Shown: positions 7,841-55,305 of the stretch, piece after piece | Numbering within the stretch: the stretch's first letter is position 1 | Layout: every line of letters starts with the position of its first letter | Assembly: GCA_963669155.1 (NCBI GenBank) | Contig: OZ022595.1 | Location: 20,209,491 to 20,273,490 of the forward strand | Direction: 5' to 3' | Length of the DNA stretch: 64,000 bases | Source: Arbacia lixula | Lineage: Eukaryota > Echinodermata > Echinoidea > Arbacioida > Arbaciidae | Notes under the pieces: generated by a model | The model's database searches: none | What the model was told of the DNA's origin: nothing | The model's input: the letters and a program-made list of their open reading frames with translations, nothing else | Position numbers and translations under genes: made by a program

Positions 7841-8037
7841 TTATTTTTGTTTGGCTTTGAAACAGAGGAACCCGACTCCCACTGCTGCTGCTGCCACCAT
7901 AAAAATCATGGCAAGGGAGGTCTTGTCAATGTTGTTGCCTGTCAGCTTCCATTTTTCATCTTTCACATTATTGCCCTCCTTCGTGACTTTGGTCTTCTCA
8001 TAAGTGAAGGATGCTCCCCCTGCAGGCTGAGGCATAA
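7841..8037 (-). CDS. Terminal exon: membrane tail anchor
   Basis: Acceptor cctctttttcag precedes the exon at 8038. The phase-1 reading gives residues 178-241, beginning MPQPAGGASF, then a Lys-rich stretch (EKTKVTKEG, KDEKWK), then about 20 hydrophobic residues (core MIFMVAAAAVGVG), a five-residue basic tail and TAA. One hydrophobic helix at the extreme C-terminus with flanking Lys residues is the usual form of a tail-anchored protein. This exon occurs only once in the window, unlike the death-domain and ATG exons. A (GT)16 microsatellite starts 10 bases after the stop. Confidence 0.8.
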
Positions 8038-11000
8038 CTGAAAAAGAGGAATATTGGATAATCCTGTATATTAATGTCATACGGCGGTATTTAGCCGATT
8101 GCCAGCAAGGTATGCTTTGGGTTAGTTAAGTTTTACTACAAACCATTCCTTCACCAAATGCAATACTAGTCGCAAAAAATTGGAATCAGATGTACATAAT
8201 GCTTAATTTTATTGCCAATGAATTCTTCCACAGAGGTCCAAATTCACAAAGAAGTTTACGACGTACATGTAAATCACAGTTGAAGCAGGTTTCATGGCGT
8301 ATAAGCAGGATATATGAAATGGCTATAATGGGGCCAAAGGACATAGAAAAAAGAAGGTGCATATGATAATTGGACTTATGATATCAGTTTTAAAAAAAAA
8401 CCTAGGCTATGAGTACAGCACAAGGAGCTGTTATAGCCGTCAGCAATATTTTAACCCTAATACTCCCAGGCTATTTCAAAGCCACTATGCATTATGCTTG
8501 ATGCATGGAACCCCTCTTTTAGTCAAGAAAGTTCTCAGTTCTACTACAGTCATCTTCTGAAACATTTCGTACAAACTCTCCATCTGACAGTATGGTAGTA
8601 AATATAGGACAAATTTCTGTGGGAAAGTGGGTTACCGGAAAAGTGTTGATGGTAGTGCGATCGTTTGCACTGACATACTAAAATAACTGGAAACTGCCCA
8701 GTTCACCACTTTACAAGCCCCATATCTGAAAAGTGTTAGAGCGCAATATTTCACAGTTATTAGCGACATCGAGATTTGAATACCACAATGTGACTGCTAA
8801 TTGTATAATACAGGTCGTCATGCTAATTATAATAACAATGTATCATTTTGAGGAGATCACTTCAGGTTACAAGTTGCCTGATAAGACATATACAGTAAAG
8901 AAAAAGAATGAATAGATTCCACAAGATTCCTCATGATCATGAAATATTTGTGTCAGTATATTCAAGCACCCAGTGTAACTACTCACCTGAACAGAATCAA
9001 TCTATTATTCTGATGTTTTACATCTAACACAAACACACAAAATCCACTTCTACACTTATTTTTCTCAAGAAGCATAATCAAAAGAATTGGTAGCCAAGAA
9101 CTAAGATCCAAGTACCTTGTTGCAGCCCATCATTGACTGCATCGGAGGACACCTGTTCGTTGTCTGTGGGTTCAATCAACTCATCCTCTTCTTCAGCGCC
9201 TCTGACAGGCTCTTGAATGCCTGGCAATTATATCACCAGATAATACCGTCAAAATCTTCTAAGATGGCTATTACAATTATGTAAGGTCAAAAGTTGATAA
9301 AAAGGACACATTATCTTACATAATATATTGCTAATTATTAATCACAGATGAATACCAACTGTGCAGCCAATCATGGCCAGCTATATTATCAGTTCATATT
9401 GCAGAGGTAAACCTGGCATATCACCAGCTGTAAACACTTCAGATGTCTAATGGCTGCTCGCATCTCTCTTCAGACTCACAACTCCTTCTCTGCCAGATTC
9501 CATACTGCCAAAAAAAAAACCTTCGTATACACTACTCATCCACAAAATATCCCCAAAAAATTGTTCTGATAGGTACTAAAAGCTGCGTATTTGAACAGGA
9601 ATTAATCAAATCATGCGGTATTTGCTTCTTTCTTTTTCCGCCTATTCAGCGGCAATTTTGCTAATTGAGATCTAGTAATAATACCGCAATATTGCAGTAG
9701 GCGAATCTTATAAACTGTGTCTGCAAAATAGCCACAAATGTTGCACCTTCTGCATTGCGCTCTGGTATGTGATTCAGTAATCGCAACGCTCGTATGGCTT
9801 AGCGGAACAAGTCAGCATCGTATGTTTACTCTAGCTAGGGGTGTGGAGAGAGTCCAGCTGTCCAAAACACGGCAATATTATGGCTATTTCAGTGTATATG
9901 GACGGTGTTTTCAGAGGTTAGCTGGAAACTTCCAAACCGATGTGAATTGGTAATAACAGCGGTATTATTATGATTATGGTACATGAATGGGGCTCTAGAC
10001 AAATGATGTGTATTACACCGGTGGAAAAATGCCTCACTGGTGCAAAAGGAGTCAACTACTGCAGAGCATCATATGCATGAATGTACCTTGCGCCCCTCTG
10101 CCACCAGCTGGCTGTCTGACTGGTAAGGGTTGGCCCGACACATGGACAGGAGCTGGTAGATTCTGGACCGGCCTTGCTCCTTCTCCGCTTGCCACGGCGT
10201 TTCTCTCAGCTCCTGCAAAGAAAGTGGGAGTTCAATGTCATTTTCTATCTGCACATTCTATGCATGATCAAACTTTTGGCATCATTTATCATTTGTTCCT
10301 ACTGTCCTACACGCAACACCATAATGTTATCAGCTGACACTTATCGGGTCAATTAAACATAAATCAAGAATACAGCGCAGCGGTCTACAAACAAACACTG
10401 AGGGAATGAAGTCATCAATACTGGGGTACCTGAGTATTAATGTACATTGTTAGACATTCTGGTAAGAAATGTATGTGAAATAAGATTGTCAATTTGTTTT
10501 CATTTCTTAACATTTTAGGATTTAACTTATTTGTTCGACACATACCCAGCTGCCACAGGCTCTCTACATTTTATACCGGTACTACATAATGTCCTCTATG
10601 TACAAACATTGAAGGATCAGCAAACGTTTTTCCTCCGAGGTTTCCTCTATCTGATTTTTTTTTTTATTTAAAATCAAGTTGTCCCACCGTCATGAAAGTT
10701 TGAAAAGCATGTTTATGGGTCCTGGCATTGAGGAGTTTGAACTAACCAACATTCTATGCTGTGGTGTGGAAGGACATAACTGATTCTGTCAATAACTATG
10801 TCTGGGAACAAAGACTATGCCTTACGCCCACTTGCTAGCCACTCTCAGTGGTGTTACGACATAGTCTTTGTTACCAGACATAGTTGGTAACAGAATTGTG
10901 GTGTCCATGCACTTCACAGCCTAGAATCTATGCTAGGTTTGAACATCTAGTTTACCTCCATCGCAGTGCTTGGCGATAATCGGCAAACCAAAGCCACCAA

Positions 11001-11830
11001 TATCAGCATCCTTCAGGGCTTTCTCCAACCCTTCTCTGGAAGCTCCTTCCTTGGAGGACCACTGCCAGAGCACTTCTTTAACAGCTTCTCTATGGTCTTG
11101 CTTGTGTTTTTTTAAAATGGCTTGATTCTCATCATAGCCCACTCCAAGTTGACCACAAAAGCTGGTGTAGGCAGCTGTAGGAAACTTCTGAGCAAGCTCC
11201 TCAAACAATGGTTCCCTCTTTTCTAAGAATCTATTCCCTGTTGAAAGTAAATGATAGCAATTAAGATGAATAGATTATGGGTGTGGGGAAACCCTCGCTA
11301 ATTTACACGAGGAGTGTCCTAGGAGGACATTCTGGAATACTAATTTGGCCTCTCCTAGGCATCTTGGGGAGTTAAGAGAAAACTTAGGAGAAAACTTAAC
11401 ATAAGAGGAATTTTGGTTTACCAGCCTCAGGCTCCAGAACATTATTTCATTATATCCTCAGATGCAATGTCAGGAGCAAGTTCTGCTTAAGAGGTCTAAT
11501 CAAGTTCACATTCATAGGCTTAAATGATTGTTAAAACAATCAAACTTAAAAGGTCCTACTATAATTGAGCTAGATGACATCTGTCCTGTGTGCATTCAAT
11601 TCACACAAATACTTGACAAGACAATAACGTTGCAACATCGCAATTTCCAGTTTGCCTTATCGTGAGACAAAAGATCCAACTACTTCAGCGATTTTCTACT
11701 ACCACGATGATGAACATCTTCCGTACTAAGACAGTAACATTAACAAATAATACTTACTTTCATGCAGTTAATTCATACAAATACTTGACAATAACATTAA
11801 CAAATAATTCTTACCGCTTGTGGCAGCCAT
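7841..11830 (-). CDS. Tail-anchored death-domain protein, complete 5-coding-exon gene
   Basis: Joined from five minus-strand exons: 11815-11830 (coding part), 10956-11237, 10087-10212, 9116-9220, 7841-8037. Coding lengths 16+282+126+105+197 = 726 nt, that is 241 residues plus stop; every border is AG..GT and all four introns are phase 1. Residues 1-6 come from the ATG exon, about 15-88 form a death domain, 100-142 a Pro/Gly-rich linker, 143-177 an acidic segment with an EEEDE run, and about 217-236 a single hydrophobic segment followed by FKAKQK-stop. There is no signal peptide, so a C-terminally anchored cytosolic protein on mitochondrial, ER or other membranes is inferred. Death domains mediate homotypic assembly in apoptosis and innate signalling; the partner is unknown. 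The start is supported by an in-frame TGA nine bases upstream and by G at -3 and +4. No named orthologue recognised; the splicing model is my reading and untested. Confidence 0.82.
9116..9220 (-). CDS. Acidic linker exon (constant exon 4)
   Basis: Minus-strand exon of 105 nt with acceptor ttgccag and donor CAACAAG/gtactt, phase 1 at both ends. It encodes 34 whole codons, IQEPVRGAEEEDELIEP at the start and AVNDGLQQ at the end, with 10 Asp/Glu. It is read in the only frame that joins the neighbouring phase-1 exons. Too short for the usual ORF length cut-off. No domain recognised; probably a flexible spacer between death domain and membrane anchor. Single copy in the window. Confidence 0.75.
10087..10212 (-). 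CDS. Pro/Gly-rich linker exon (constant exon 3)
   Basis: Minus-strand exon of 126 nt with a strong acceptor (cactttctttgcag) and donor CGCAAG/gtacat. Two frames are open. The phase-1 frame needed by both neighbours gives AERNAVASGEG, then Pro-rich NLPAPVHVSGQPLP and PAGGRGAQ. The phase-0 frame (ELRETPWQAEKEQ...) is also open but would not join in frame. I prefer the phase-1 reading. Single copy in the window. Disordered linker; no domain recognised. Confidence 0.75.
10759..10920. mobile_element. Hairpin element FB1 in intron 2
   Basis: Arms of about 60 bp: left ends ctatgtctgggaacaaagac, right starts with its near complement (gtctttgttaccagacatag) and ends gtgtccatgcacttcaca. It belongs to the same family as 13,281-13,475, 34,860-35,050 and 56,194-56,390, but is more diverged. 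Confidence 0.7.
10956..11237 (-). CDS. Death-domain exon, copy 1 (nearest the constant exons)
   Basis: Minus-strand exon of 282 nt, acceptor ctttcaacag at 11238 and donor GGAG/gtaaac at 10955, phase 1 on both sides. The 93 whole codons start NRFLEKREPLFEELAQKF and end LPIIAKHCDG. The death-domain pattern is visible: LFEELAQKF (helix 1), FCGQLGVGYDENQAI (the helix 2-3 LA..LG...DE..I pattern), then EAVKEVLWQWSSKEGAS with the conserved Trp of helix 5, and GLEKALKDADI (helix 6). The symmetric phase makes it a movable exon, and two near-identical copies lie at 18.0 and 39.5 kb. Confidence 0.85.
11730..11815 (-). repeat. Short tandem repeat beside ATG exon, unit 1
   Basis: Repeats of about 60 bp containing tacttgacaataacattaac and a cttac motif. 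On the minus strand each carries a GTAAG splice-donor core just downstream of the ATG exon. The array is longer in units 2 and 3 (about 32,740-32,986 and 54,129-54,375). Confidence 0.6.
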
Positions 11831-11855
11831 TTCAAAATATCAATGAAGAGATTAT
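11815..11855 (-). CDS. ATG exon, unit 1
   Basis: Minus-strand exon of 41 nt, acceptor tttttgttctttcag and donor AGCG/gtaaga. ATG at 11830-11828 starts MAATS, with the first base of the next Gly codon before the donor (phase 1). The 25-nt 5'UTR part holds an in-frame TGA, which fixes the start. The exon joins the death-domain exon 577 bases downstream to read MAATSGNRFLEK. Equivalent exons lie at 32,987-33,027 and 54,376-54,416. Confidence 0.75.
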
Positions 11856-12698: not shown

Positions 12699-12787
12699 TA
12701 TAATTATACAAAGAACATGTACTGCAGTATAGACGGCGATTTATTGTGGGGATTGGGGAATCCCCGTCCGCGTACCGCGTGACGTCA
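12699..12787 (-). promoter_or_regulatory. Unit 1 promoter: TATA, kappaB-like palindrome, CRE
   Basis: Reading upstream on the minus strand there is a TATA-like TATAATTATA at 12699-12708, a perfect 11-bp palindrome GGGGAATCCCC at 12755-12765 that fits a Rel/NF-kappaB site, and a consensus CRE TGACGTCA at 12780-12787. Order and spacing recur in units 2 and 3, and the CRE is identical in all three. A GC box (GGGCGGGG) lies at about 12456-12463, inside the first intron. Binding by Rel or CREB/ATF proteins is inference from motifs. Confidence 0.55.
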
Positions 12788-13275: not shown

Positions 13276-13280
13276 GGTAC

Positions 13281-13475
13281 TAGGCTGTGAGGTGCATGGA
13301 CACAACCCAGTCTGGTAATAACTATGTCTGGTAACACATACTCTACGCCCTAATGACGTCATAGCTCCTCTGGCTTCTTCCCCTCTTCTGCAGATGAGGA
13401 GGGAGGATGGAATTTGTGCATAGTCTGTGTTTCCAGACATAGTTGTTAACAGACTGGGTTGTGTCCATGCACTTA
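13281..13475. mobile_element. Hairpin element FB1, unit 1
   Basis: Arms of about 55 bp (ggtgcatggacacaacccag on the left, its complement ctgggttgtgtccatgcac on the right) around a loop with TGACGTCA and a CT/AG-rich core. It stands at the left edge of the recently duplicated block. Confidence 0.75.
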
Positions 13476-13779
13476 AATTTGCCAACGCAATGCGAGATAA
13501 AAACAGATGATTTCATGCATGAGAATCGAATGTTTCATATTATATTACTGTACATGCTGTAGAATAAATTGCATAACCATCTTTTTATGTTTTCTATGCG
13601 AATGGTTGCATTTTGCGCCGTGTATGTAGCTGCAATTTAGTTGTGACCTGAACTTATGAATGTATGTATAGTCATTCAGTGTTCCCATACGGCTAATATC
13701 AAGACAAAAAATAAAGTTTGAGAACTCCCTCTACCCCCACCCCCATACAACCCCAACCCTACCCCTCCTGTATCCCTGT

Positions 13780-13784
13780 TTCTG

Positions 13785-13815
<31 letters not shown>

Positions 13816-13981
13816 TCTCCCAATATTCTTTCTTTCTATTCACACCCCCCCCCCCTCTCTCTCTTTATACAACACCATTTCACACCCTCTTTATGACATT
13901 TATTTCTCCTTATCTATATTTCTTTTTTTCGCTATCTCTCTCTCACTTTCTCTCTACCCCCCTTCTCTCTCTCTCTACCCC

Positions 13982-14048
<67 letters not shown>

Positions 14049-14070
14049 CTTCACTCTCTCTTTCCTCATT
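13780..14070 (+). repeat. CT-rich array, unit 1
   Basis: (CT)n with poly-C interruptions. Shorter in unit 2 (35,345-35,620) and shorter again in unit 3 (56,700-56,835). Frames across it are artefacts. Confidence 0.9.
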
Positions 14071-14739
14071 GTACGTCACCCTCCCATGCTCCATCTCTCA
14101 TGCAGGCAGCTACATAACGCGTGTATAATATGTGTATAAATGTGCAGTGTGTGCGTGCCTGATGTCTATGTGTCGAGCTCCGTGAGTATGCGCCCGTCGT
14201 CCAATCGCCCCTGGGACGGCTACACCCACCACCACTACGTAGTGGTATAGTTCAGTGGACGGCTATGTACCCGTGATTAGCCGCGTAGACTGCCGTGGAT
14301 ACACTATATATATAGTTGAACTAGCGCCGGGCGGTGAGCTGAGGCTGAGCGAATATTTCGTCACAATTTAGGAGATAAATAAGAAAAGCAAAACAACGAG
14401 GTTTACGATCCCTGATTTTCTTCCCTTTTTCGAATGCTGGTCTGCTCCTTTTCTCTCCCTTTTCTTAGGTATTGGTAGGGAGATTTATGACGGGCACCAC
14501 AACCAACTTTAACTCCACGACGTAATTCTAACGGAATTCCGTCGGACGCTAGTATAATATGTGCGATGTAAGAAAAAGAAACAAGTTGGCGCTGAAAATG
14601 ATTCAAATTTTGGGATTATCAAGAGATCGTCGGGACGATGTGCGACGTTTAAACAATGAACAAGTATGATCACCGAACGGAGATTTAATTTGATTGGGCA
14701 CTCGTCGGTTTCACATTTAGACGAATAGACCATTTTCGC

Positions 14740-14950
14740 ATGCAATGCAAATTTTATTCATCCCGTTCAAACAAAACGTTACTAATGGTAACCTCAAAGC
14801 TTGTCCAAGGTTTGTCCGAGTAGCAAATATTAATAGATTCAAAGCGCATTCCATCCAATGAATCTGAATGACCAGATACATGGGAATGCAATAACGCGTT
14901 ACTACGCAGTTAGGGGGAAGTTATGAATACATTACGAGAACGGTGTATTT
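14740..14950 (+). repeat. Dispersed repeat ending in acgcagttaggggg
   Basis: About 200 bp from ttttattca.cccgttcaaac to the tacattacgaga end. It recurs at 36,288-36,498, 57,478-57,662 and, more diverged, inside the hairpin element at 29,660-29,855 (and 51,612-51,805). Confidence 0.65.
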
Positions 14951-15267
14951 GGATCTGAACATTTGAGTGTATCAGATAATTTATTCAGAAATAACACAGA
15001 ACACAGAATAACACAGAAATGCTATTGTACATCACAGATGACAACCCGCAACTTTTTTTTTTCTGCCAGAAGCACCATGCATGACAGTTGCAAGTGGATT
15101 AACAGGTGCGATACTCAATGGTCATTGAGCATGTGTATTGAGTGTGTGGAGGTATGTTCCCCTGACCCCATTTGCTTGCGCAGTTGTGACATGTAATGTA
15201 TCTAATATGCATCTATAAAGATTCAATCGAGGAATATTGTTACAATATGGCAATAAGGCTTTAAACG

Positions 15268-16003
15268 TGATATCTGGGCCTTGATATGGGCCCCACATGG
15301 GCTGCCCATATGGGGAGCATCTGGGCCCATATGGCCCCATTTGGCCAATCTGGGACCCATCTATCTTTTGCACCGTACACCCCGTCTGGGGCCCATATTT
15401 GCCAAATGGGCAAAAAAATGGAGGGCTGATATTTCACATGACTAATCATACTTGAATCGGCTACATATGAACAAATAATACTTATCCTATCCTTAGCCTA
15501 TGTTAACTGATCCTAGGGTTAGTACACTCACTTTCATATATAAAGTACTACGTAAATTTACATTAAAAATATTGATTAGTACAATTAAAGATGAATATTT
15601 TGTTGTAATCATTGTTGTCTGGACTCAATTAGGTTGCACTCATTTTTTAATAAAATAGTAATTTGAATGTATGCTTAAAATCCTTCTATATAGTTATATG
15701 CCGGTTATATTTATTCAAATGTACAAAAATATGACAAAATTCAATAGGACCAATGCATGCATGAATATTCATAAGCATTTCAGTTAGTGGGTTCTAGGTG
15801 GGGACAACCCATATGGGCCCCATATGGGTTTTATATGACTCAGTCGACCCAGAAATAAGACCATATTGCCCATATACATACCACATGGGGCCCTATGGTT
15901 TTATCATCTGGGTTCTAGGTGGGACAAGCCACATGGGCCCCATATGGGTGGTACATAGTACATATGGGCCCCAGTAGACCCATATGGGCCCCAGATACTT
16001 TGC
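15268..16003. mobile_element. GGGCCCATATGG-rich element, unit 1
   Basis: Two clusters of the self-complementary words CCATATGG and GGGCCC (15,268-15,415 and 15,800-16,003) flank about 385 bp of AT-rich DNA. The outer ends are inverted: tatctgggcc on the left, ggccccagata on the right. Frames rich in Gly-Pro-Tyr-Trp follow from the motif and are unlikely to be genes. Confidence 0.55.
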
Positions 16004-16011
16004 TTTGCCGA

Positions 16012-16420
16012 GTGTAAGCCTAAAATCCGTCAAAGGATAAGAAATATGTGACTTCTTAAGTTTTACTTTTGCGACGTCACGTGCGACATGCTCTTCCATA
16101 TGTTGTGTTGTTGTTGCTTTTGGAAAACTTTGATTCTTTTTTTCTCAACAGGCTCTATACCATGTTACCTTTGCATTGGACACACATTTTTTCACGGTCA
16201 TATACCTTAAGGGCAAAGATGTATTCCTTCATCAAAAAACAGAAAAGGGGGAATTTATGAAATGATTCAGCACACGTTTCGTCAACAAATTAAAACTTAA
16301 AAAAACACGTAGTTTTTTTATCCTTTGACTGATATTCATGAAAGCTTCACTAATATGTTTCTTTTATGTGCCTGCCTTCATTAAATCCAAATCAACTACA
16401 GGATAGTCTTTCCCTTTAAA
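16012..16420. mobile_element. Related TTTAAAGGGAAAG MITE, unit 1
   Basis: Shares ctcttccatatgttgtgt and the central Lys-rich-looking aaa tract with the 12,986 family. The right end is actttcccttt-type; the left arm is shortened. Equivalents: 37,575-37,870 (with deletions) and 61,140-61,545. Confidence 0.5.
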
Positions 16421-16509
16421 ATTGTCAGAAAGGTTATGGAAGTTTGTGAATGTTTGTTAGAGTTTTGATCTCGACCGTTCTTTACTAGGCCGGCTTAACA
16501 TGAGCGTCT

Positions 16510-16995
16510 CTAATTGTCAATGCGATTTATGTTCAGCTCAAATAAAACGAATCTCACTTGTTTAATAATCGATAAAACCTCCTCCCTAAGAGCGATGGTG
16601 GGAGTGATGTTTGTGGTAGCGATAGTGGGAGTAGTATCGATGGTGGAAGTGATGAAAGGGGTAGAGATGGGAGAAGAGGCATCGATGGTGGGAGTGGTAG
16701 CAATGCTAGAAGTGGTAGTGATGGTGGGAGTGGTGTCTGTGGTCGCGATGGGGGGAGAGGTGGCTGTGGTAGTGATGGTAGGAGTGGTGGCTGTGCTTGC
16801 GATGCTAGAAGTGGTGTCTCTGATAGCGATAGTGGGAGTGGTGGTTGTGGTAGCGATGGTAGAAGTGGTAGAAGTGGTAGCGACGGCGGTAGCAATGGTG
16901 GAAGTGGTATCGATGGTGGGAGTGGTCGCACCAATTTCGACTAAAATGTTCATGTTATAAATGAAAGACAAGAGGAATCGAAGAATATCAATCAT
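16510..16995 (-). pseudogene. Collapsed copy of the mucin/PAN ORF, unit 1
   Basis: 161 residues. The N-terminal 30 residues match unit 3, and about 90 residues of TTPTIATTA-type repeat remain. The PAN segment and most repeats are missing: sequence after agcgat in unit 3 (61,725) is joined directly to a repeat. The join changes frame, so the tail reads ALREEVLSIIKQ instead of LLGRRFYRLLNK. A truncated secreted peptide is possible, but loss of the only folded domain suggests a non-functional copy. Confidence 0.55.
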
Positions 16996-17107
16996 ATGCA
17001 ATCCTATGTTACATACATAATTTAATTACTGTAATAGTCTTGAAAAAATGTTTTCATTGATCTCTATCATGGAAAGATATACTAGCGAAAATGTATTTGT
17101 CGTTTCC

Positions 17108-17111
17108 CCAG

Positions 17112-17142
<31 letters not shown>

Positions 17143-17295
17143 ACGCACACGCACAAGAAATATGCGTTGTCTGATTATTCCCTATCCCAATCGTGTATCC
17201 CAAAACAAGTACCCTGTCCAGCGGCACGTCCATGCACAGTACTTTCAGCAGAGGAGTACCTCTCAACCACCCACCGCCCCCCCCCCCCCCCCTTC
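17108..17295 (+). repeat. Poly-C and (CA)n cluster, unit 1
   Basis: Poly-C run, (CA)n and a second poly-C run within a segment of about 235 bp (17,110-17,345) present in units 1 and 2 (38,563-38,747) and absent in unit 3 (join at 63,725). Confidence 0.85.
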
Positions 17296-18002
17296 AACCC
17301 CCGACGCGGGATATTGACATGGTTTTATATTTATTGCACTGCCAAAGGGATATTAAGATTTAAAAATCTTGCTTAAAGGATTATTGCCGCCTTTTTCACC
17401 TCTTTTTTCTTTGTACTTTCCATTAAAATACACTGTACCTTAAAATCATTGTAAATGAAATGTCATCATTTTTAAGTTCACTAAAGTGTCGCATTACGTA
17501 ATTACATGATTTAGACTTGTTTTAGTACCATGTAAAATAGGATTATGAAAGAAGAAATCAATGTGTCAAAATTGAATTGAATTAAAGATGTATGTACTAC
17601 CTTTTTCATTGGGTTGCCATGGTAACTGCATCACCCCCAGGTCCAGGGCCTATACATGAAGCAATTAATAGTTACCCAGTAAGCATGCTTCTGCGTTTTT
17701 ATATCTTTCATTCATTTTCCTTTTTAGCAATTTCGGAAACTCCTTGTTTGTAATTGTTTTCATTCGTTCCTTTTAATTTCTTTCATACCTTCTCCTTTTT
17801 AATTTCTTTTATCCCTTCTCATCTATTTCTTTTATTCCTTCAGCTTTCTACTTCTTCCATTCCTTCTTTTCAAGCTCTTCCAGCATTCACTCTTTTCATG
17901 TTCTGTTTTTATCATCAATTTCAGTATTTGATCTCTAAAGTTATTGCTCCAAATCACAGTTTTGTGGGTGCCGGTCATGAAAGATTTGAACATCCACTTT
18001 AC

Positions 18003-18284
18003 CTGTATCGCAGTGCTTGGCGACAATCGGTAAACCAAAGCCACCAATATCAGCTCCCTTCAGGGCTTTCTCCAACCCTTCTCTGGAAGCTCCTTCCTTG
18101 GAGGACCACTGCCAGAGCACTTCTTTAACAGCTTCTCTATGGTCTTGCTTGTGTTTTTTTAAAATGGCTTGATTCTCATCATAGCCCACTCCAAGTTGAC
18201 CACAAAAGCTGGTGTAGGCAGCTGTAGGAAACTTCTGAGCAAGCTCCTCAAACAATGGTTCCCTCTTTTCTAAGAATCCATTCC
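18003..18284 (-). CDS. Death-domain exon, copy 2
   Basis: 282 nt with the same acceptor (ctttcaacag) and a good donor (ACAG/gtaaag), phase 1 at both ends, open throughout. Relative to copy 1 it differs at R8G, D to G in EKALK(D/G)AD, I to V, and the last codon G to T. About 165 bp of upstream intron is also copied, up to TTAAC at about 18,447, where it breaks into unrelated CpG-rich sequence. It is the first death-domain exon downstream of the unit 2 ATG exon. No copy of the linker or tail exons follows it before the unit 1 promoter, so it must splice about 7-8 kb onward to be expressed. Confidence 0.7.
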
Positions 18285-18449
18285 CTGTTGAAAGTAAATG
18301 ATAGCAATTAAGATGAATAGATTATGGGTGTGGTGAAACCCTCGCTAATTTACATGAGGAGTGTCCTGGGAGGACATTCTGGAATACTAATTTGGCCTCT
18401 CCTAGGCATCTTGGGGAGTTAAGAGAAAACTTAGGAGAAAACTTAACCC

Positions 18450-18760
18450 GAGAAGCCCGATTTCAATAACTGAGCGTGAACCGCGCCGTACGATTTCATT
18501 TCCAGGAAACAGAAGACCGCGGCGTTTCCATCAGTAGGCGGTGCTTAGCGCGCGTTCCGCCAATAGATAGAAAGCGCTCTCCGGTTTAGCGATTTCCCTT
18601 CTTTCGACGTCATTATGTAATGAATATTCATGAAAAACGACTGTCATATATGAATATTCATATATTCGTCTTGTTTGACCAATGGCGTGCACCTCACGAT
18701 CTCCGCATCGAAATCCATATTCATGAAGAGCGGAGTTATGTCATCGCAGCGGTCGTGATC
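18450..18760. promoter_or_regulatory. CpG-rich CCAAT-bearing block upstream of death-domain copy 2
   Basis: It starts where copied intron sequence ends. CpG-dense (ccgcgccgtacg, gcgcgcgttccgccaat), with CCAAT at the gccaatag and gaccaatgg sites, a cgacgtcat CRE-like site and three ATATTCAT motifs, two within palindromes (atgaatattcat). It lies about 170 bp upstream of the death-domain exon on the minus strand, so it could act as an alternative promoter. Counterpart at 40,344-40,655. Confidence 0.3.
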
Positions 18761-18764
18761 ACGG

Positions 18765-21605: not shown

Positions 21606-21609
21606 ATCG

Positions 21610-43491: not shown

Positions 43492-45601
43492 TGATAATTC
43501 ATGTTTGATATCTGCAAGCAGTGCTACATGTGGGCGGGGGGGGGGGGGGGGGGGACATGCTTCCGAACAACAGATATTATGCTTATACCACCCCTGGGCT
43601 CCCTAACACACGTATTGTCTCATATCACCTCTATTTGCATATCTATTGTAGATATTCAATGGATGTGCAGTGTGGCGTGAATCTCGTGAATTCTGTAACC
43701 GGAGATACATTCTTCGGGATTGAGCTAACATCAACCCACCAGTCCGAAAGATATCTAGTGCGATTTATTGTGTACATTGAAAAGAGGAAGTTGTGTTTCA
43801 AAAGAGACATCTTAAAGCATATTTTGTATAAGTGATCTGTAATTACTCCAGCCTTCTCATATGGTGGAAATAATCAAATATTTATAAATGACAACATGCC
43901 ACTGTAGCAAGCTCCCCCCCCCCTCTGTTTGTCTGTCTGTATGTCCCTCTCGTCTGTCTCTGTCTCTCCTTCAATCTCTCTCTCTTTCTCTCCTTCAATC
44001 TCTCTCTCTTTCTCTCTCTGTCTCTCCTTCAATCTCTCTCTCTCTCTCTTTCTCTCTCTCCCTCTCCTTCAAACTCTTTGATATTCTCTTGCACTCTCCC
44101 GTTCGTTCTCTACATCGTTATTCCCAGAGCCAGTTTGGCCAACTCAGTTTCAATAGGTAACAATATGGCGCATATTATTTTATTGTCTGCTTGCTTGCCA
44201 AAATCTGTGTATAGATGGCTGTAGTTATCCATATGTTTAGCCTATCACCATTATCAGCTCTGTATGTCTCTCCTCCTACATTTCTCTTTCCTCTGTTCTC
44301 TTTCTATGTTTCTCTGTCTATATTTCTTTCCATTTCTTTTTCTATTTCTCACATACACACACGCCTACATACAATTACGCACATACACACAAACGCATTG
44401 ACCAAAGAAAGCAGCTCATTTCCCCATGTGTTCCCTCTCTAAGTTCTACTGCATTTACATAATATGAACGTATGTAATTGGTATATGTTTATCTGAAAAT
44501 GGCATATCTGTTTCATGAACACTTTACAGAAGGGCCTCTGAAAATAGAGGCGGGTGAGTTTGAACCATGGTAAAATAAATACTGCAACTACACGTGGTGA
44601 AAGATTCCCGCCTGAAGTTACACTGAGCGTTGGGTTGGGCCCACGCGCAGTCAGATCTTGATCTTGCAAAACAATTATTTCTATAAGATATTTGCACGGA
44701 ATAATGGCGTGACCCCTGTTAGTACTTTGATGTATTCATAAAGAAATAGGGTGCAGCTTGTCACCAAATAAGGCTTGAAGAATGAGCGCAGACATCACGT
44801 GATGAGGTGCGTTATGTATTCATTTCATTCATCATATTCAGTAGAAGTCTATAATAGCATGTGCTACGTGGCATGTATTATTGGCCTCCAACGATGGTAT
44901 ACATTTTACAAAGCAGACGGACTATGCAGTCTCCATACGCAAGTACAAGGCATGGAATGGCCGACTCTGTGTACGTTCATAATGCCTGTCAAAGTGCTGT
45001 TCCTTTTATTACCAATTAATGTTGAATTTATGATCGAAACATCATCAATGATTATTGTGATATCTAGCACCAAATATGGGTTTCCTTTTTGTGGGACGCA
45101 CTGTATAATCAAGGATAATATATGAAGAGAAATGTTAAAAATAATATTTTGTTTTACTTTAACCAAAATAAATCAACATTATTTTTCACAAAAATGTTAG
45201 ATAAGAAAACGCAAGGCAAATCATTGAGATTTTGGTCCCTCATCTAGGGGGACGGGGAAGAGGCTTCCCAACCTATAGTTACTTTAGACAAAGGGAGTAC
45301 ATATGCCCTTGAGCGATCGCTGCCCGTGCTAAAAGAAAAAAGGATACTTACGAAATGCAAACTTTACTTGCCTAGCAGCAAAGTTGTACATTGATCTTCA
45401 ATGATAGGCCTGCAAATATTGTTTAATTCGGTGAAAACCATGTGGAGTAAATGTCGAAAAACGTACAAATTTAGATGATCAATGCAATCTTTTAAAATAG
45501 TGCATACTAAAATGACCTTATGTTAGAACTGATATTCAAAATATGTCGACCGATTGCTTGTATACTGAAATGAATAGAGACCCATAATGTATTTACCGTG
45601 A
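43492..45601 (+). repeat. Nested tandem repeat, first copy, unit 2
   Basis: Counterpart of 21,610-23,652 with 4 ccttcaa-type units. Confidence 0.85.
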
Positions 45602-45710
45602 CTTTATTCCCCTTCCCTTTTTGCTCACTAATCATTTATTTTGCAGCTACATACAAATATTTTGTATCAATTGATATCCAATTTATATTTTCTATTTGCA
45701 AACATGTTTA

Positions 45711-46193
45711 TGATAATTTATGTTTGATATCTGCAGTGATACATGTGGGGGGGGGGGGGTATGCTTCCGAGCAACAGCTCCCTGACACACGTATTGTCTC
45801 ATATCACCTCTATTTGCATATCTATTGTAGACATGATGTGCAGCGTAGCGTGAATCTCGTGACTGAATTCTGTAACCGGAGATACATTCTTCGGGATTGA
45901 GCTAACACACATCAACCGACCAGTCCGTACAGATATCTAGTGCCATTTATTGTGTACATTGAAAAGAGGAAGTTGTGTTACAAAAGAGACATCTTAAAGC
46001 ATATTTTGTATAACTGATCTGTAATTACTCCAGCCTTCTCATATGGTGGAAATAATCAAATATTTATAAATGACAATATGCCACTGTAGCAAGCTCCCCC
46101 CCCCCCCCTCTGTTTGTCTATCTGTATGCCCCTCTCGTCTGTCTCTGTCTCTCCTTCAATCTCTCTCTCTTTCTCTCTCTGTCTCTCCTTCAA

Positions 46194-46224
<31 letters not shown>

Positions 46225-46277
46225 GTCTCTCCTTCAATCTCTCTCTCTCCCTCTTTCTCTCTCTGTCTCTCCTTCAA

Positions 46278-46308
<31 letters not shown>

Positions 46309-46361
46309 GTCTCTCCTTCAATCTCTCTCTCTCCCTCTTTCTCTCTCTGTCTCTCCTTCAA

Positions 46362-46393
<32 letters not shown>

Positions 46394-47927
46394 CTTCAAT
46401 CTCTTTGATATTCTCTTGCACTCTCCCGTTCGTTCTCTACATCGTTATTCCCAGAGCCAGTTTGGCCAACTCAGTTTCAATAGGTAACAATATGGCGCAT
46501 ATTATTTTATTGTCTGCTTGCTTGCCAAAATCTGTGTATAGATGGCTGTAGTTATCCATATGTTTAGCCTATCACCATTATCAGCTCTGTATGTCTCTCC
46601 TCCTACATTTCTCTTTCCTCTGTTCTCTTTCTATGTTTCTCTGTCTATATTTCTTTCCATTTCTTTTTCTATTTCTCACATACACACACGCCTACATACA
46701 ATTACGCACATACACACAAACGCATTGACCAAAGAAAGCAGCTCATTTCCCCATGTGTTCCCTCTCTAAGTTCTACTGCATTTACATAATATGAACGTAT
46801 GTAATTGGTATATGTTTATCTGAAAATGGCATATCTGTTTCATGAACACTTTACAGAAGGGCCTCTGAAAATAGAGGCGGGTGAGTTTGAACCATGGTAA
46901 AATAAATACTGCAACTACACGTGGTGAAAGATTCCCGCCTGAAGTTACACTGAGCGTTGGGTTGGGCCCACGCGCAGTCAGATCTTGATCTTGCAAAACA
47001 ATTATTTCTATAAGATATTTGCACGGAATAATGGCGTGACCCCTGTTAGTACTTTGATGTATTCATAAAGAAATAGGGTGCAGCTTGTCACCAAATAAGG
47101 CTTGAAGAATGAGCGCAGACATCACGTGATGAGGTGCGTTATGTATTCATTTCATTCATCATATTCAGTAGAAGTCTATAATAGCATGTGCTACGTGGCA
47201 TGTATTATTGGCCTCCAACGATGGTATACATTTTACAAAGCAGACGGACTATGCAGTCTCCATACGCAAGTACAAGGCATGGAATGGCCGACTCTGTGTA
47301 CGTTCATAATGCCTGTCAAAGTGCTGTTCCTTTTATTACCAATTAATGTTGAATTTATGATCGAAACATCATCAATGATTATTGTGATAGCTCCAAATAT
47401 GGGTTTCCTTTTTGTGGGACGCACTGTATAATCAAGGATAATATATAAAGAGAAATGTTAAAAATAATATTTTGTTTTACTTTATCCAAAATAAATCAAC
47501 ATTATTTTCACAAAAAAATTAATGTTAGATAAGAAAATGCATGGCAAATTATTGAGATTTTGGTCCCTCATCTAGGGGGAGGGGGAAGAGGCTTCCCAAC
47601 CTATAGTTACTTTAGACAAAGGGAGTACATATGCCCTTGAGCGATCGCTGCCCGTGCTAAAAGAAAAAGGATACTTACGAAATGCAAACTTTACTTGCCT
47701 AGCAGCAAAGTTGTACATTGATCTTCAATGATAGGCCTGCAAATATTGTTTAATTCGGTGACAACCATGTGAAGTAAATGTCGAAAAACGTACAAATTTA
47801 GATGGTCAATGCAATCTTTTAAAATAGTGCATACTAAAATGACCTTATGTTAGAACTGATATTCAAAATATGTCGACCGATTGCTTGTATACTGAAATGT
47901 ATAGAGACCCACATGTATTTTCCGTGA
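45711..47927 (+). repeat. Nested tandem repeat, second copy, unit 2
   Basis: Counterpart of 23,762-25,977 with 7 ccttcaatctct units at 46,130-46,405. Confidence 0.85.
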
Positions 47928-50892
47928 TAAATCAGAAGTCATGTCGATGACAGCTTCATGGTGTAATTTGATTATAGGTATTTATGTCAAAATCACACGC
48001 TTGTACGTGTTATGTCAATGGAAGGGGCATTTTTTTCTCATCATGAAATGACATGTCGACCTTTAATCTATAATCTATTTTTCGTGTGAATCAACAATGC
48101 CCAGTCTGATTGTGATTAATTGATACATGATTCTCATACATGTATTTCTAAAATGAGGTATTGAGGAGACTATGAAGTAAGCAGCTACAGTTTTATATTG
48201 TTGTTTATGTTGTCATTTGAGCCATTTCCTTGCAATAAATAGGTCGAGTGCGTCAAAGTTGAAAGTCTGCGCGTGCGTCAATACACTTTTGTGTGCAAAT
48301 ATTGCAAAAAACATGACTGTCTTCAATCGGCCATAGCTCCTCAGAATGGCTTGTGACCCCCAATTTTCTTTTAGTATTCTAAAAGATGATGGAATGTAGA
48401 TGTGATTTCATGTATCATTTTGTCCTCAAGTACATCGTGACATCATTAAATTGAATGAATTAAATGAATGTTCATGTATGACGTCATGAACTTCTTTAGC
48501 CGTTTTCGTGTATCTCAGTAATCCATAAATTTTCTCTCAAATTTCAGTATGTTGTGCCTAAGATATTGTTCTATGGTAACATTGCCATTATTTTTCATTT
48601 TGATAACGCCTTCATGGTGTAAATTTTTGATGATAGGCATTAATGTAAAAATCGGATGTTTGTACCTGTAATGTCATTGGGAGGGGCATTTATTTGACAT
48701 GACGATCTTTTAGGAGCTGTACTCACTTATGTTTAGTCTTTTACTCTGATTTTTTTTTTTGTAGCTCAGTCTATTAGCTTTCTGTAACGTGGTCTTTATT
48801 TTCTAATCAGACGTCGGGATTATGGCAAAATTTCAGCTTAAACATTGATTTTTACATCATTATAGCCACTTTTTCTGCTTTACGTGTTCAACGAAAGGGA
48901 AGATTTGTGGCTCAATGGGAAAGGCGCTGTTTTAAGAACGCGAGGCCCCCGGCACGAATCCTGGTGTGAGTAGGGTAAATTTTTCATTCCTTTTGCAATG
49001 CGAGTTTTGCGACCTTCTTCTGTTCAATCCCTCACTTTGTCATTCTCTGATATTTTCTTTCCCTTTTTTTTACTCTCTCCCCTTTATCATGTTGCTAACA
49101 CATACATTTGATCATTTAGGCAAATCTTTGCAAATAGTATGTTGTAAGTGCGCTATGACCTTTCGTGAGCGTTGCCCTTGATTTCTTATGAATAGATGGT
49201 GTCACCGTGGAAGGTCCAGGGTGTCACCGTGCATTACCATCCCATGTCTGTGCACGAATCTGCAATACAGACCACCTTATACTTGTCCACAAGTATGTCT
49301 CGTCATTAACTTGCATTACGGTCTACTACTTAAGTCCTTTTGAATTTTGTTTAGAAAAGTGTTTAAAATTTACATCACGGAAAAGGACGACGGGAAGAAC
49401 CCAACTATGATTTATCAGTTTTCTATACCCATTCTCTCTCTATTTTCCTCTCTTTTCCCTTTCGCCAACATTACCCCCTGCCCTCTTTATTACTTACCAT
49501 GCTCAAACAGATGTGGTAAATTATTCCATACAAAAGTTCCTTGTATCTCATTTCCCCTTTTCGCCAACCTTTCTCTCTGTCAATTTATTTGCCTCTACCA
49601 AATTTCCAAATTGAGGGGACGAAATTGCGAGCGAGCAAAATTTTTGATATTTTTACTAGAAAATCAAAATTTGTGATAGATTAAAACATAATATTCCGAA
49701 AAGAATATCCTTCACTCCTCTCGTGTTTGTTTTCTTTCTTGGTCGTGAATTATCTTGGGGGAAAGCGCCCCAAGCCCCTTCATCTTTACAGCACTGTCTT
49801 TACAGTGTATGATTGCGTATAACGGTGTTAGGACAAACATAAAAAGGGATGGATTAATGGTATAAAAAATTGACAATTATTGAAAGATAAACAGGTTGCT
49901 ATTTGCAATCACATACCCACAACAATACATGTGTAATGGTATTTATTAACATTCTCGACGCCAAATTGCATATACGTTACTCTACCGACACGCACCGATT
50001 ATCGACATCATTTATATTCGAAATTTCTGAGAAATTCACGATTTTGAGGGACAGCTGGTCACGAATGAGATGCCACCTCCCCAGAAGAAGCCTCGCTTCG
50101 TCTTTGTGGAATATGTACTGGACATGGCAGATTGTGGGCTCTGATAGTGAGATCGACTCTTCTTTTACCCAACACAAAGATACAACTTCAATATTTTTAA
50201 ACACTTGTTACAACATTATCCAGTTTTATATTAACTCGGTGCAAGCTGCTCATGAGGTTCAGAGTAATGTTTATAATATATTCATCATGTGCATAAAGAA
50301 TTAAAGGTGGCTTTATTAACTTTGAGAAGTTCAGAGAAATTAATTCCTGTCCTGTTTATCGTGCTACATGCTTTGTCAAGTTTTCAAAGGACCCGCTCCG
50401 TAATTGACTATGATTTGAAAATGGCTTGGGTGCGTCACTTCCTGTTCTTTCATAAAAAAAAAAGTGCCCTTTCACTGGCTCCACAATAGGTTTTTCAAAT
50501 TCAACTGATAATGGATCGTAGCCCTGCAGATACCAAAGAAAGATTAGAGCCTATGGCAGGCGTATTCGTGCATATACATATGTAACATTTCAACATTACC
50601 TGGGTAACACCCAAGGTCCACTTCTTTAGACATTCACCCCACCCCTAAGGAGCTCATTAGGCGCGCATGACCACACATCCTGCTCTTTTGTAAAGCAAGG
50701 AACGTACCTCTCATAAGCTATGAAATGGGCCCCTTTCAAACTGAAAATGAACTTGGTACCATAAGAAAGCGTAGATCCCCTGCTACACACGACCTTCATA
50801 CCGTTATTACCAGTCTATAAACAAGAGCGTTAGATGTGCATGCAAAATCATGTATACAGGAAGTGAAAGAAACATAGGTTGAAGGGGTTACT

Positions 50893-51974
50893 AAATTCGA
50901 AAAATAAGTTCCCACTAATTTATGTAAAATTATCCACTAAAAACGAATTTCACATTCGTTTGCCGCACTAAAAGATCCCCTGTCATCAAAATGTATGTTG
51001 ACTTATGTCGATGCAAAATAATATGTACATAACAAAATCACTAACTATTCAATGAAAATATGCGTGCTATATTTTGAAACAATTTTTCTTTATTTTTTCT
51101 CAGCACTGATAAGCCCCGCCTCCAAAATATCCTCCAACACAAAATTCCCCCTGTGACAACATCATTAGCAGGATGACAAGCAGAATTTATGCACAAATTT
51201 AACATTGCAATGACTACCTCCACCTGCCCACAAGAGCATCACATGTCTTCACACAATTCATCTAACAACCTTTCATGTGGGAATAATCGTTTCCTTATGT
51301 CAAAAATGTGCTAGCTATGTGAAGCTATTAGAAGCACTTGCAGGTAGACATTGCAATGTTTTGGTTGTGCATGAATTATGTCTATTGTCCTGCTAATTTC
51401 TACCTTTGATGATGTCACAGGGGGAATCTTGAGTTGGTGATTTTGTTAAATACATATGATGTTGCATCAACAGAAGTCAACATATATTACGACGACAGGG
51501 GCCCTTTTAGTCTCATTTTGACGAAAATTTGACAAAAAAAAAACCCCGCACACCTCCAGTGACGTCAGAAAAGTCAAAATGCCATCAATGCCAACGGCGT
51601 GAATAAAATGTTTTATTCACGCCGTTCAAACAATATGTTACCCATGGGAACCCCAAAGCTTGTCCGAGGTTTGTCGAGTAGCAACAACTAAAAGATTCAA
51701 AGTGCATCCATCCATTGAATATGAATGACAAGATACAGGGGAATGCAATAATGCGTTACTACGCAGTTAGGGGGAAAGTTGTGAATACATTACGAAAATC
51801 GTCTATTGTTGACTTCCGTACACGCCGTTGGCATTTTTACTTTTCTGACGTAACTGGAGGTGTGCGTTTCTTCAACTTTTCGTCAAAATGAGACCTTATT
51901 GCGGCGAACAAATGTAAAATTCGTTTTTAGTGGATAATTTTACATAGATTAGTGGGAACTTATTTTTCTAATTT
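50893..51974. mobile_element. Large hairpin element with inserted hairpin, unit 2
   Basis: Counterpart of 28,944-30,026; inner element at 50,968-51,510. Confidence 0.65.
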
Positions 51975-52817
51975 ATTAACCCTTTGAATCAGAGAGATGT
52001 AAGGAATGGATTCAGCATGAAGTGTAATTTATTCCTACAGCAGTCGCGTGCACAATGGAATATTTTACGCGTTTGGCTCTTTGATCGAGGGAGATCCGCC
52101 GCCAAACAATAATGACAAATTTTGGATGCATTTAGAGGAATAAATATTCTGTTTGCGCAGAAGATTTTAGAAGCACTTCATGTACTAAAGCGCATGTGCA
52201 GTAGTGGAACATCGTATAATGATACAAATATCTTGTAAATCGTTTATTGCGTGTTTCACCTTCCATGGAAACCACCTCGATTTTATGTGCGGAGATGTCC
52301 GAAAAAGTTACGGACCAAATCATTTCTACAATTTTATAAAAATTTCCCTCCGCTCACCCCCAATCTAATTTAGTAACCCTTTGAATCAGAGAGATGTAAG
52401 GAATGGAGTCAGCACGAAGTGTAATTTATTCCTACAGCAGTCGCGTGCATTGATATCACAATGCAATATTTTACGCGTTTGGCTTTTTGATCTAGGGAGA
52501 TCCGCCGCAAAACAAGGATGACAAATTTTGGATGCATTTAGAGGAATAAATATTCTGTGAACTTCAGATTATATTGTTGCTTCGTTTTTTGATAAATCGA
52601 GAATAATGTCGAAAACATGTCAGAGAAATGCCTCCATATCGCACATTGGGCAATCATATTTCCTTACAAATATCTTGTAAATCGTTTATTGTGTGTTTCA
52701 CCTTTCATGGAAACCACCTCGATTTTATGAGCGGAGATGTCCGAAAAAGTTATGGACCAAATCATTTCTACAATTTCATAAAAATTTCGCTCCGCTCACC
52801 CCCAATCTAATTTCCAG

Positions 52818-53160
52818 TGTGTGTAATAAAATCAGTTGTGAACTCCCAGCGAAGGCTGAACGGTTGACATATTTCTCAAACCAGATTCTCTTTTGTTATT
52901 CAGAGGCATTGCCTAATGAGAAATACGACGTATTGTTTGAAACACCTGAATATCTTGAATTTTATGAGGCGGCGGTCATCATAGATCAAAGGAAGTCTTT
53001 CCGAGTGCAATCCATCCATGATAGGTCCATGATTAATAAAAACAGACACGGTGTAAGAATAAAGCCACGGGATGCAATGAACATCCCTCTAAAGAACATA
53101 AAATTCCCTGAAACTTATATAAACAATATTTCTTTGTTATACCATCATATCAAAAGTTAA
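52818..53160 (+). CDS. Unrecognised possible 3' exon, unit 2
   Basis: Same 113-codon frame as 30,869-31,211 with identical translation; the copies are too young for this to prove selection. Confidence 0.25.
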
Positions 53161-54375
53161 AACGATTTGAAATGTTTATATCAGCCATTGCTCAAGTACG
53201 AGTCTTGGGAAGTGCGCAAAAACCTGGCACAGAGAGCAAAGCGCGGGGGCACACAAAGAGTTAGCAAACAGAAATGCATTATCTTTTCTTCGGGAATGTT
53301 CACAACCCATGCAATACCTTTGTTCAATTAATGAATGCTTTCAAAGTTATGATATGGAATTATGTGCCTACAAAATCATTTGTATCTGCTTATCGTTGAT
53401 AATGATGTTTCATGCGAGATATTTTATGACACAAGTAGATGGTGTTGATTTCCAATAAAAAAATATATATGAACTTCCTATTCCTATTATAACGGCATAT
53501 TCAAATAGCATAAGGCGTGTTACATGCACGTTCCTAACATGCCTAAATGCAAATGAGGACAATTCATGCCGAGGTCTAGTGCCAGCTTCGCTTTGATTGG
53601 CTGATTTTTCTTACACACAGGGCTGGTTACTAGGGGCAGGTTTCGAGACGAAATTCTGGAGAAATAATATCTTTATACGAAATTTTCTGAAGGCAAATCA
53701 CATCTTTTGAGACGGAAACCGCCTTTAATAATAAGAAAAAGGTTTAGACTTTTGACTGATGGAAAAATTATGATCATTTTCAACGCAAAACTGTGTTAAA
53801 TGTTGGATAGAAAATGTCCTTAGCATTACGCACCCGGTGCACGAGTTATCTCGTTCTTCGGGTGTGAGTGTGGAAAACTTTAAACGAGTTATCTCGTTCT
53901 TCGGCTGGAACGGGTTAACATAAGAGGAATTTCGGTATACCAACCACAACATTATTACATTATATCCTCAGATGCAATGTCAGGAGCAAGTTCTGCTTGT
54001 GTCGGAGAGGTCTAATCAAGTTCACATTCATAGGCTTAAATAATTGTTAAAAAAATCAAACTTAAAAGGTACTAACATAATTGAGCTAGGTGACATCTGT
54101 CCTTTGCACATTCAATTCATACTAATACTTGACAAGACAATAACATTTACAAATAATTCTTACCTTCGTGCAGTTAATTCACACAAATACTTGACGATAA
54201 CATTCACACATCAAATTCAAAAGGTACTGATTGAACTACAGTAGATGACATGACATCCGTCATTTGCGCAGTTAATTCATACAAATAACTAACAATATCA
54301 TTTACAAATAATTCTTACTTTCACACAGTTAATTCATACAAATACTTTACGATAACATTAACAAATAACTCTTAC

Positions 54376-54416
54376 CGTTTGGGGCAGCCATTTCACAATA
54401 TCGATGAAGAGATTAT
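54376..54416 (-). CDS. ATG exon, unit 3
   Basis: Identical in structure and peptide (MAAPN) to unit 2, ATG at 54391-54389, donor AACG/gtaaga. The next death-domain exon downstream is copy 3 at 39,738-39,457. Confidence 0.6.
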
Positions 54417-55108
54417 CTGAAAGAACAAAAAAAAAATATCCAATCATTAAATGTACATTTCCTGGACCTTGACTAGTAATTGAATGGTCTCTAGCTATAG
54501 CATGCAAGTATGAGCAAATCTTCTACGCTATGGAAAAGCAACATTTTTTAGAAGACATTGTTATGTAGTCATGAGAGAGTCATATTCTTATTTGATTTCT
54601 TTCAGGATCACAGGAAGGAATCATCGAAATTACAAGAATGATTATGCAACAAAAATAGTACAAAATACTGCAATACTGCATCATTATTGCCTAATACTAA
54701 TACTATTATATTTATAATGCGCACTAAGTGTAATTGTTGGCTAAACCATTTTTGGTGCACATTATAAATATTTAACGAGCCGTCACAGAGCATGGACAAA
54801 TACTAGTCCACAGTCACAGATACTCTGCCTTCAGTACTAAAAATGGTTAACAGTTTAGACCTCTACTCTAGTCATAGCAGTACAAATAGCAAACTCAAAT
54901 TAATCGCTGCCTTGCTTGTACATGTACCACTACCAGCGTTGTAACACGCCGTCGCATTGCCGTGCCGGGCGGGGTGGCTGATAGGTCTACATGTCAAATT
55001 AGAAATATTGGGAGTCACTAAAAGTAATGAATCTATGTAGCGTAGATCTATAGAGTGACACACAGATAGCTCTTCCTTAAAACTGTCTCCTAATTCCTGC
55101 TGTGTTAC

Positions 55109-55170
55109 CTTTTGTCTTTATCCAAGTGAAATAGGAAATCCAGGCAAGTAGAACATGCGATATGGCAACG
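55109..55170 (-). other. Putative 5'UTR exon, unit 3
   Basis: Donor ACAAAAG/gtaacac at 55108, as in the other units. The 5' end is estimated from TATATA at 55196-55201. Confidence 0.4.
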
Positions 55171-55195
55171 TGTTGATCCCAGCACGCCGTCGTTG

Positions 55196-55305
55196 TATAT
55201 ACAAAGAACATGTACTGCAGTATAGACGGCGATTTATTGAGGAGATTTGTTGAAGCCCACTGGGAGATCAGTGGGGAATACCCGTCCGCGTACCGCGTGA
55301 CGTCA
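55196..55305 (-). promoter_or_regulatory. Unit 3 promoter: TATA, weakened kappaB, CRE
   Basis: TATATA at 55196-55201, GGGGAATACCC at 55273-55283 (T-to-A-type change inside the kappaB palindrome) and an unchanged CRE TGACGTCA at 55298-55305. It differs from unit 2 at only a few bases over 2 kb. Confidence 0.5.

Follow-up and report, generated by a model that had tools for sequence, protein, structure and literature searches.

The window analysed here is a stretch of 64,000 nt of the sea urchin Arbacia lixula (contig C20, OZ022595.1, positions 20,209,491-20,273,490). It carries, on the minus strand, a gene for a death-domain (DD) protein whose 5' half is present three times. Each of the three units consists of a presumed promoter, a short exon with the ATG and a DD exon, and one set of linker, acidic and tail-anchor exons, termed here the constant exons, follows unit 3. 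The sequence of the window contains no N bases, and the genome searched in addition comprises 607 Mb in 590 contigs. The original prediction for this locus, made from the letters alone, was that the three modules may serve one shared 3' end, with the protein carrying either one chosen DD or two or three of them in a row. The exons of the gene are the following:

54376..54416, minus strand: ATG exon of unit 1
32987..33027, minus strand: ATG exon of unit 2
11815..11855, minus strand: ATG exon of unit 3, 41 nt of which 16 are coding, acceptor ttctttcag
39457..39738, minus strand: DD exon of unit 1, 282 nt (splice model, Pfam)
18003..18284, minus strand: DD exon of unit 2, 282 nt (splice model)
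10956..11237, minus strand: DD exon of unit 3, 282 nt (splice model, Pfam)
10087..10212, minus strand: constant linker exon, phase 1 at both ends (splice model; the exact DD-linker junction is present in a copy on contig C13)
9116..9220, minus strand: constant acidic exon, phase 1 at both ends (splice model, C13 copy)
7841..8037, minus strand: constant tail-anchor exon with the stop codon (splice model, hydropathy, homologous stretch in the C13 copy)

The exon coordinates, the 282-nt size of the DD exons, the phases and the AG and GT borders that had been predicted were all confirmed on the sequence. The three DD exons share an acceptor ending in caacag and a GT donor, are in phase 1 at both ends and are free of stops, and the coding parts of the ATG exons end at 54376, 32987 and 11815, all in phase 1. 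Spliced models in which unit 1, 2 or 3 is joined to the constant exons are open and encode 241 amino acids, and the reading frame of a series of three DDs with the constant exons is open as well. In all three units a strong acceptor, a T run followed by GTTCTTTCAG, lies 25 nt before the ATG. The ATG exon therefore looks like an internal exon of 41 nt that is preceded by a non-coding one; the proposed promoter-ATG order holds for the presence of the ATG exons, which do not look like first exons. The claim that the linker, acidic and tail-anchor exons form a single set was borne out, as tblastn found no second set in the window. In the genome, six matches were obtained from eight scored candidates: the three exons described here, two stretches on contig C13 and a weak one on contig C9 (E = 0.5). 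Among these eight candidates the constant set occurs once in the genome, besides one intronless copy. A scan against Rfam gave no match at the gathering cut-offs.

Only unit 3 leads directly into the tail-anchor exons. In the model of this unit, residues 17-83 correspond to Pfam Death (PF00531; 26.8 bits for a cut-off of 22.6), and the DD part of unit 1 matches the same family with 28.9 bits. The 241-residue protein of unit 3 has one C-terminal hydrophobic stretch (residues 218-236, mean Kyte-Doolittle value of 2.5 over 19 residues) and windows starting before residue 200 do not exceed 0.63, so that the hydrophobic segment is a lone C-terminal one, as in tail-anchored proteins. Unit 3 with the constant exons looks like an ordinary complete gene of 241 codons. 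Searching the genome with the DNA of the DD exon gave five matches from four scored candidates, three in the window and two in the C13 copy. With the DD protein, 46 matches were retained from 48 scored candidates (19 of them on contig C12); six are the three copies of the window and three C13 stretches, and the other 40 are at most 42% identical, which makes this DD a distinct member of a large family. No further close copy was found in the genome beyond the window units and C13. Among solved structures, the death domain of PIDD1 (LRDD; PDB 2of5 and 9tuf) gave the only sequence matches at E up to 10 (E = 0.23-0.26); PIDD1 has further parts that the window protein lacks. At codon 48 of the DD (18139-18141, 39593-39595), unit 1 has Phe and the other two units have His, and Tyr is present in both C13 copies and several distant DD relatives.

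Units 1 and 2 are the two halves of a tandem duplication, and a palindromic repeat is found at every unit join (13.27, 34.76 and 56.19 kb):

34857..56286: unit 1 of the 21.4-kb tandem duplication (alignment; 99.5% identical to unit 2 over clean columns)
13278..34855: unit 2 of the 21.4-kb tandem duplication (alignment)
10742..10936: palindromic repeat just after the DD exon of unit 3 (homology to unit 2 stops at 10935)
13273-13474, 34756-35052 and 56185-56390: palindromic repeat at the unit joins

When positions within 12 columns of a gap were excluded, units 1 and 2 differed by 93 mismatches in 19,770 clean columns (0.47%); over all aligned columns there were 143 mismatches. The relationship to unit 3 and to the lectin-like region at 56-64 kb is older, with about 1.5-6% substitutions in most blocks and more in the threonine-rich (Thr-rich) repeats. 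Units 1 and 2 thus stem from one recent duplication and the three copies are not three long-kept alternatives. A divergence of 0.47% with a few larger indels is also within the allelic range, and might be expected if the assembler had placed two haplotypes of one unit in tandem. However, the sequence is gap-free and the genome search revealed no other close copy of the DD exon that would mark a second haplotig. Furthermore, the joins match an older repeat boundary, found also at 13.27 and 56.19 kb and marked by the palindromic repeat, as in unequal exchange and unlike an arbitrary mis-join. An artefact of this kind is very improbable. The block at 56-64 kb, considered as a fourth DD unit, was ruled out, being the 3' part of a lectin-like gene, and in the adjoining 40 kb the best tblastn match had E = 9 (7500 bases of the 114-kb region retrieved are N). 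Within the intron separating the ATG and DD exons, both units carry a tandem duplication of about 2.2 kb (21610-25977 and 43492-47927).

The lectin-like gene is the source of the 3' part of units 1 and 2, and the features involved are the following:

61683..63553, minus strand: Thr-rich and PAN terminal exon of the lectin-like gene, from which units 1 and 2 received their fused 3' end
37963..38393, minus strand: copy of the Thr-rich terminal exon in unit 1
16510..16940, minus strand: truncated copy of the Thr-rich terminal exon in unit 2, in frame with the DD exon
39055..39103, minus strand: exon S of unit 1 (matches to the C13 spacer and to the lectin-like exon)
17601..17649, minus strand: exon S of unit 2, 49 nt, chimeric, with a TGA in frame with the DD (matches to the C13 spacer and to the lectin-like exon)

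The earlier feature list, correct for the exons that it named, had missed exon S, the Thr-rich terminal exon of units 1 and 2 and the donor lectin-like gene. At the right edge of the window (unit 0), a lectin-like exon ends in AATGAAAAAG followed by the donor GTAGTA (..CAYLVTGRSTVSMWLCDFMTPVIGVLCEAKNEK) and splices in phase to the Thr-rich and PAN terminal exon, in which PAN_1 scores 26.7 bits (cut-off 21.4). The same ten bases, the donor and the sequence downstream close exon S in units 1 and 2 (87 of the 88 nt compared; 98% over a block of 269 nt). The 5' part of S matches the spacer of the C13 copy, and the lectin-like exon supplied its final 10 nt and its donor. As these ten bases, the donor and the sequence that follows are joined to the front of S, each unit consists of the 3' end of the lectin-like gene on its left side and of the 5' half of the DD gene on its right side. 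Two endings inside the units are predicted from this structure. Exon S lies about 0.35 kb past the DD donor, and splicing into it gives the DD followed by GPGPGGDAVTMATQ and a stop (14 added residues). The Thr-rich terminal exon lies within 1.1 kb of the same donor; splicing into it keeps phase 1 and produces in both units an open reading frame of 242 amino acids, whose best hydropathy value of 1.09 indicates that it has no membrane anchor. AATAAA or ATTAAA words, which may occur by chance, are present downstream in each of the two units. The lectin-like gene, whose Thr-rich part is a minisatellite, lies on the minus strand. Beyond the window, at 77-78.5 kb in window coordinates, there is a relative of the Thr-rich exon in inverted orientation, and a further lectin-like start was seen near 99.2 kb; a local family is suggested.

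A decayed intronless copy of the DD gene on contig C13 (about 10,116,198-10,117,376) bears on the history of the locus. Its order is leader, ATG (MAASNAGSERG), DD, a spacer of about 39-43 nt, leader, ATG, DD, linker, acidic part, about 95 nt, tail anchor and the start of the 3' untranslated region; the linker part carries a deletion. The DD-S, DD-linker and linker-acidic joins fall at or within a few bases of the exon ends, the introns being precisely absent. The spacer aligns at 26 of 31 positions with the genomic strand of units 1 and 2, at 363-393 nt past their DD donor, and the aligned stretch begins 9 nt after an AG. Its score against the 600 nt downstream of these DD exons is 42. Among 690 other overlapping 600-nt windows from the region the highest score was 30, and none of 2000 shuffles of the spacer reached 42. 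The C13 copy is without the 0.35-kb intron, its DD ends at the splice site, and the two DDs are separated by 84 nt in which the second ATG exon is in frame as an internal exon. Since the spacer match spans an absent intron and the DD ends at its splice site, the older locus most likely made a spliced mRNA with two DD modules in series, and this ancestral mRNA was probably joined to the same constant exons. The fossil evidence for a past two-DD series is good but not complete. With 14-21% substitutions per exon, the copy is old. For its stretch of about 95 nt between the acidic and tail-anchor parts, perhaps a lost exon or an insertion, no counterpart was found in the window; the comparison with the corresponding intron scored 22, and the highest of 60 shuffles 26.

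We also considered that the two modules arose by a DNA duplication inside the C13 copy, which would account for the presence of the same stop codon in both DDs, otherwise unexplained. Such an event requires a breakpoint exactly at the end of the DD exon and would repeat all of S before the first ATG, but in an ungapped comparison only CAACCCACG is common beyond the ATG region. The two ATG regions align over 63 nt at 94%. Differences number 3 in 53 positions between them and 43 in 272 between the DDs (Fisher P = 0.05; 0.016-0.17 depending on how the ATG region is cut, and 0.01 with an earlier cut), no more than a hint that the ATG regions may be closer to each other than the DDs.

Combined, these data lead us to favour, with slightly better than even confidence, a locus in which unit 3 is a complete gene for a tail-anchored DD adaptor and units 1 and 2 are chimeric copies of its 5' half that end within themselves. 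The product of unit 3, if expressed as predicted, would be held at a membrane by its C-terminal anchor, with a proline-rich and acidic linker and a DD facing the cytosol. The 5' half of the gene (presumed promoter, 5' exon, ATG exon, DD exon and start of S) would have been copied, and we infer that an unequal exchange fused this copy, inside exon S, to the adjacent lectin-like/Thr-rich/PAN 3' end. The recent tandem duplication would then have doubled the chimera, giving units 1 and 2. Because the complete terminal exon is the nearest one, an internal ending is favoured for these units, most likely as a DD stopping in S or as a DD-Thr-rich fusion. Both forms would be without membrane anchor and might compete with or tune the anchored form, and splicing of units 1 and 2 into the constant exons would be a side route at most.

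Several observations weigh against this interpretation. Firstly, the DD donor of units 1 and 2 (CAG/GTAAAG) is good and the acceptors of S and of the Thr-rich exon are weaker than that of the linker, so that skipping both exons to reach the linker is feasible. In a crude comparison of eight acceptors, based on general consensus values, the pyrimidine fraction was highest for the linker (0.93), compared to 0.64 for S and 0.43 for both the Thr-rich and the constant acidic exons. Secondly, one lectin-like exon matched Pfam Lectin_C with 15.2 bits, below the cut-off of 22.6, and the next lectin-like exon gave no Pfam match. Thirdly, the two C13 DDs have in common an in-frame TAG and 17 positions at which they depart from the window copies, a pattern that fits either conversion after insertion or an origin of the second copy within C13. 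No poly(A) tract was seen by eye in C13, no convincing target-site repeat flanks the copy, and its ATG exon has 31 coding nt, compared to 16 in the present units. Finally, relatives of the palindromic repeat are also clustered at 100.1-100.6 kb, away from any join.

The phases allow any DD exon to be spliced to the linker or to another DD exon, and the linker lies 7.8 kb from unit 2 and 29.2 kb from unit 1. This compatibility, the strong linker acceptor and the C13 fossil, in which two modules precede the constant exons and the second ATG exon is internal and in frame, are what would be expected if the three modules were alternative or additive 5' modules of one shared tail-anchor 3' end. The copies, moreover, are not identical, as unit 1 has an aromatic residue at DD codon 48 and units 2 and 3 have His. 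However, the captured terminal exon and the stop in S come before the next unit when reading on from the DD exon of unit 1 or 2, these two units are nearly identical, and no signal of constraint is seen between the DD copies. Inclusion of the 41-nt ATG exon of the next unit, as counted by hand, shifts the frame, and DD-to-DD joining must therefore skip it. What stood of the shared-end model is the set of several modules with compatible phases before one constant set; it had not foreseen that units 1 and 2 have their own candidate terminal exon and an in-frame stop. The proposed choice of DD is unproven and has a strong rival, and as an account of the present units 1 and 2 a variable-module locus is possible but not the likeliest; we regard it as rather doubtful.

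If the copies provided alternative DDs, these might be expected to be preserved. The DD exons of units 1 and 3 differ at 13 of 282 positions, compared to 82 of 1387 in the promoter/ATG block, and the changed DD codons alter the amino acid in three of four cases between units 1 and 2 and in seven of nine between units 1 and 3. As the divergence of the DD is close to that of the promoter/ATG block and mostly at the amino-acid level, nothing indicates the maintenance of three alternative DDs, and comparisons between the copies gave no signal of purifying selection on this exon. The DD exon holds a cluster of differences between units 1 and 2 (6 for 1.26 expected, Poisson P = 0.002), a generous P value as other 282-nt windows hold up to 14 differences, some of them where the alignment is poor. 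When C13 serves as outgroup, units 2 and 3 agree with each other against unit 1 and C13 at 3 of the 13 sites varying among the units, and a short conversion tract between units 3 and 2 would explain part of the cluster. Diversifying selection on the DD was dropped, given the generous P value and the tract.

The promoters of the three units are presumed from sequence only. They carry sites which we take to be kappaB-like and CRE-like:

55273..55283, minus strand: kappaB-like site of unit 1, one base changed, GGGTATTCCCC
33884..33894, minus strand: kappaB-like site of unit 2, one base changed, GGGGATTCCTC
12755..12765, minus strand: kappaB-like palindrome of unit 3, GGGGATTCCCC
12780-12787: CRE-like site of unit 3, TGACGTCA

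The 11-bp kappaB-like palindrome is intact in unit 3 and one half-site is broken in each of units 1 and 2. Over the promoter/ATG block, units 1 and 2 show two differences in 1454 aligned columns, both in this 11-mer; the half-site losses may reflect chance or a loss of induction. That the sole two differences each break a half-site, and that DD differences mostly change amino acids and are about as frequent as those of the promoter/ATG block, would suit units 1 and 2 being silent 5' gene fragments kept only through their youth, with unit 3 alone functional. In both units the DD and ATG exons nevertheless retain intact splice sites and frames, which is weak evidence at such an age, and we consider silence of both units improbable. 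A living module array may also be envisaged, in which the ATG exon starts its own message or, when transcribed from upstream, serves as an in-frame internal linker as in C13. Promoter choice would then set one to three DDs per tail-anchored chain and soluble forms would end in the captured exon. The present 41-nt ATG exon would need to be skipped, and such an array appears quite improbable.

Under the reading that we favour, the locus would comprise one anchored gene and two potentially soluble chimeras, with a fossil two-DD message elsewhere in the genome. Death domains signal through assembly into helical oligomers. The threshold of assembly would thus be expected to depend on how many DDs each anchored chain carries and on the proportion of anchored to soluble forms. 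The locus is thus a test case for the evolution of adaptor copy number and valency by partial duplication. A literature search found no paper on death domains combined with tandem duplication and alternative or variable first exons, none on death domains with chimeric genes and unequal crossing, and none on an expansion of the DD family in starfish.

Several known systems resemble parts of this locus. To our knowledge, osteoprotegerin is not tail-anchored and has no module array. One paper describes this TNF-receptor relative as having two death domains (PMC4442310), and to that extent it resembles the C13 copy, with two DDs in one chain. The layout of the window protein, which matches the Death family, is like that of MAVS-type adaptors. 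MAVS itself has an N-terminal death-fold domain (CARD), a proline-rich linker and a C-terminal membrane anchor. Chimeric genes arise by partial tandem duplication or unequal exchange between neighbours, and here, as in such chimeras, a breakpoint inside an exon puts the 5' half of a gene in front of the 3' end of an adjacent one, followed by amplification. Unlike in such chimeras, the gene that provided the 5' half is still complete at the end of the array, which leaves a read-through route open. In the UGT1A and clustered protocadherin loci, several units of a promoter and 5' exon precede, on the same strand, a common set of 3' exons. The present locus likewise has more than one module ahead of constant 3' exons that form a single set. 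It differs in that units 1 and 2 carry the terminal exon of a neighbour in frame and a stop in S, that these units stem from one recent duplication, and that the use of a shared 3' end is hypothetical here. Several 5' modules lined up ahead of a single 3' end can mimic a variable-exon locus of the UGT1A or protocadherin type when a captured terminal exon offers another ending.

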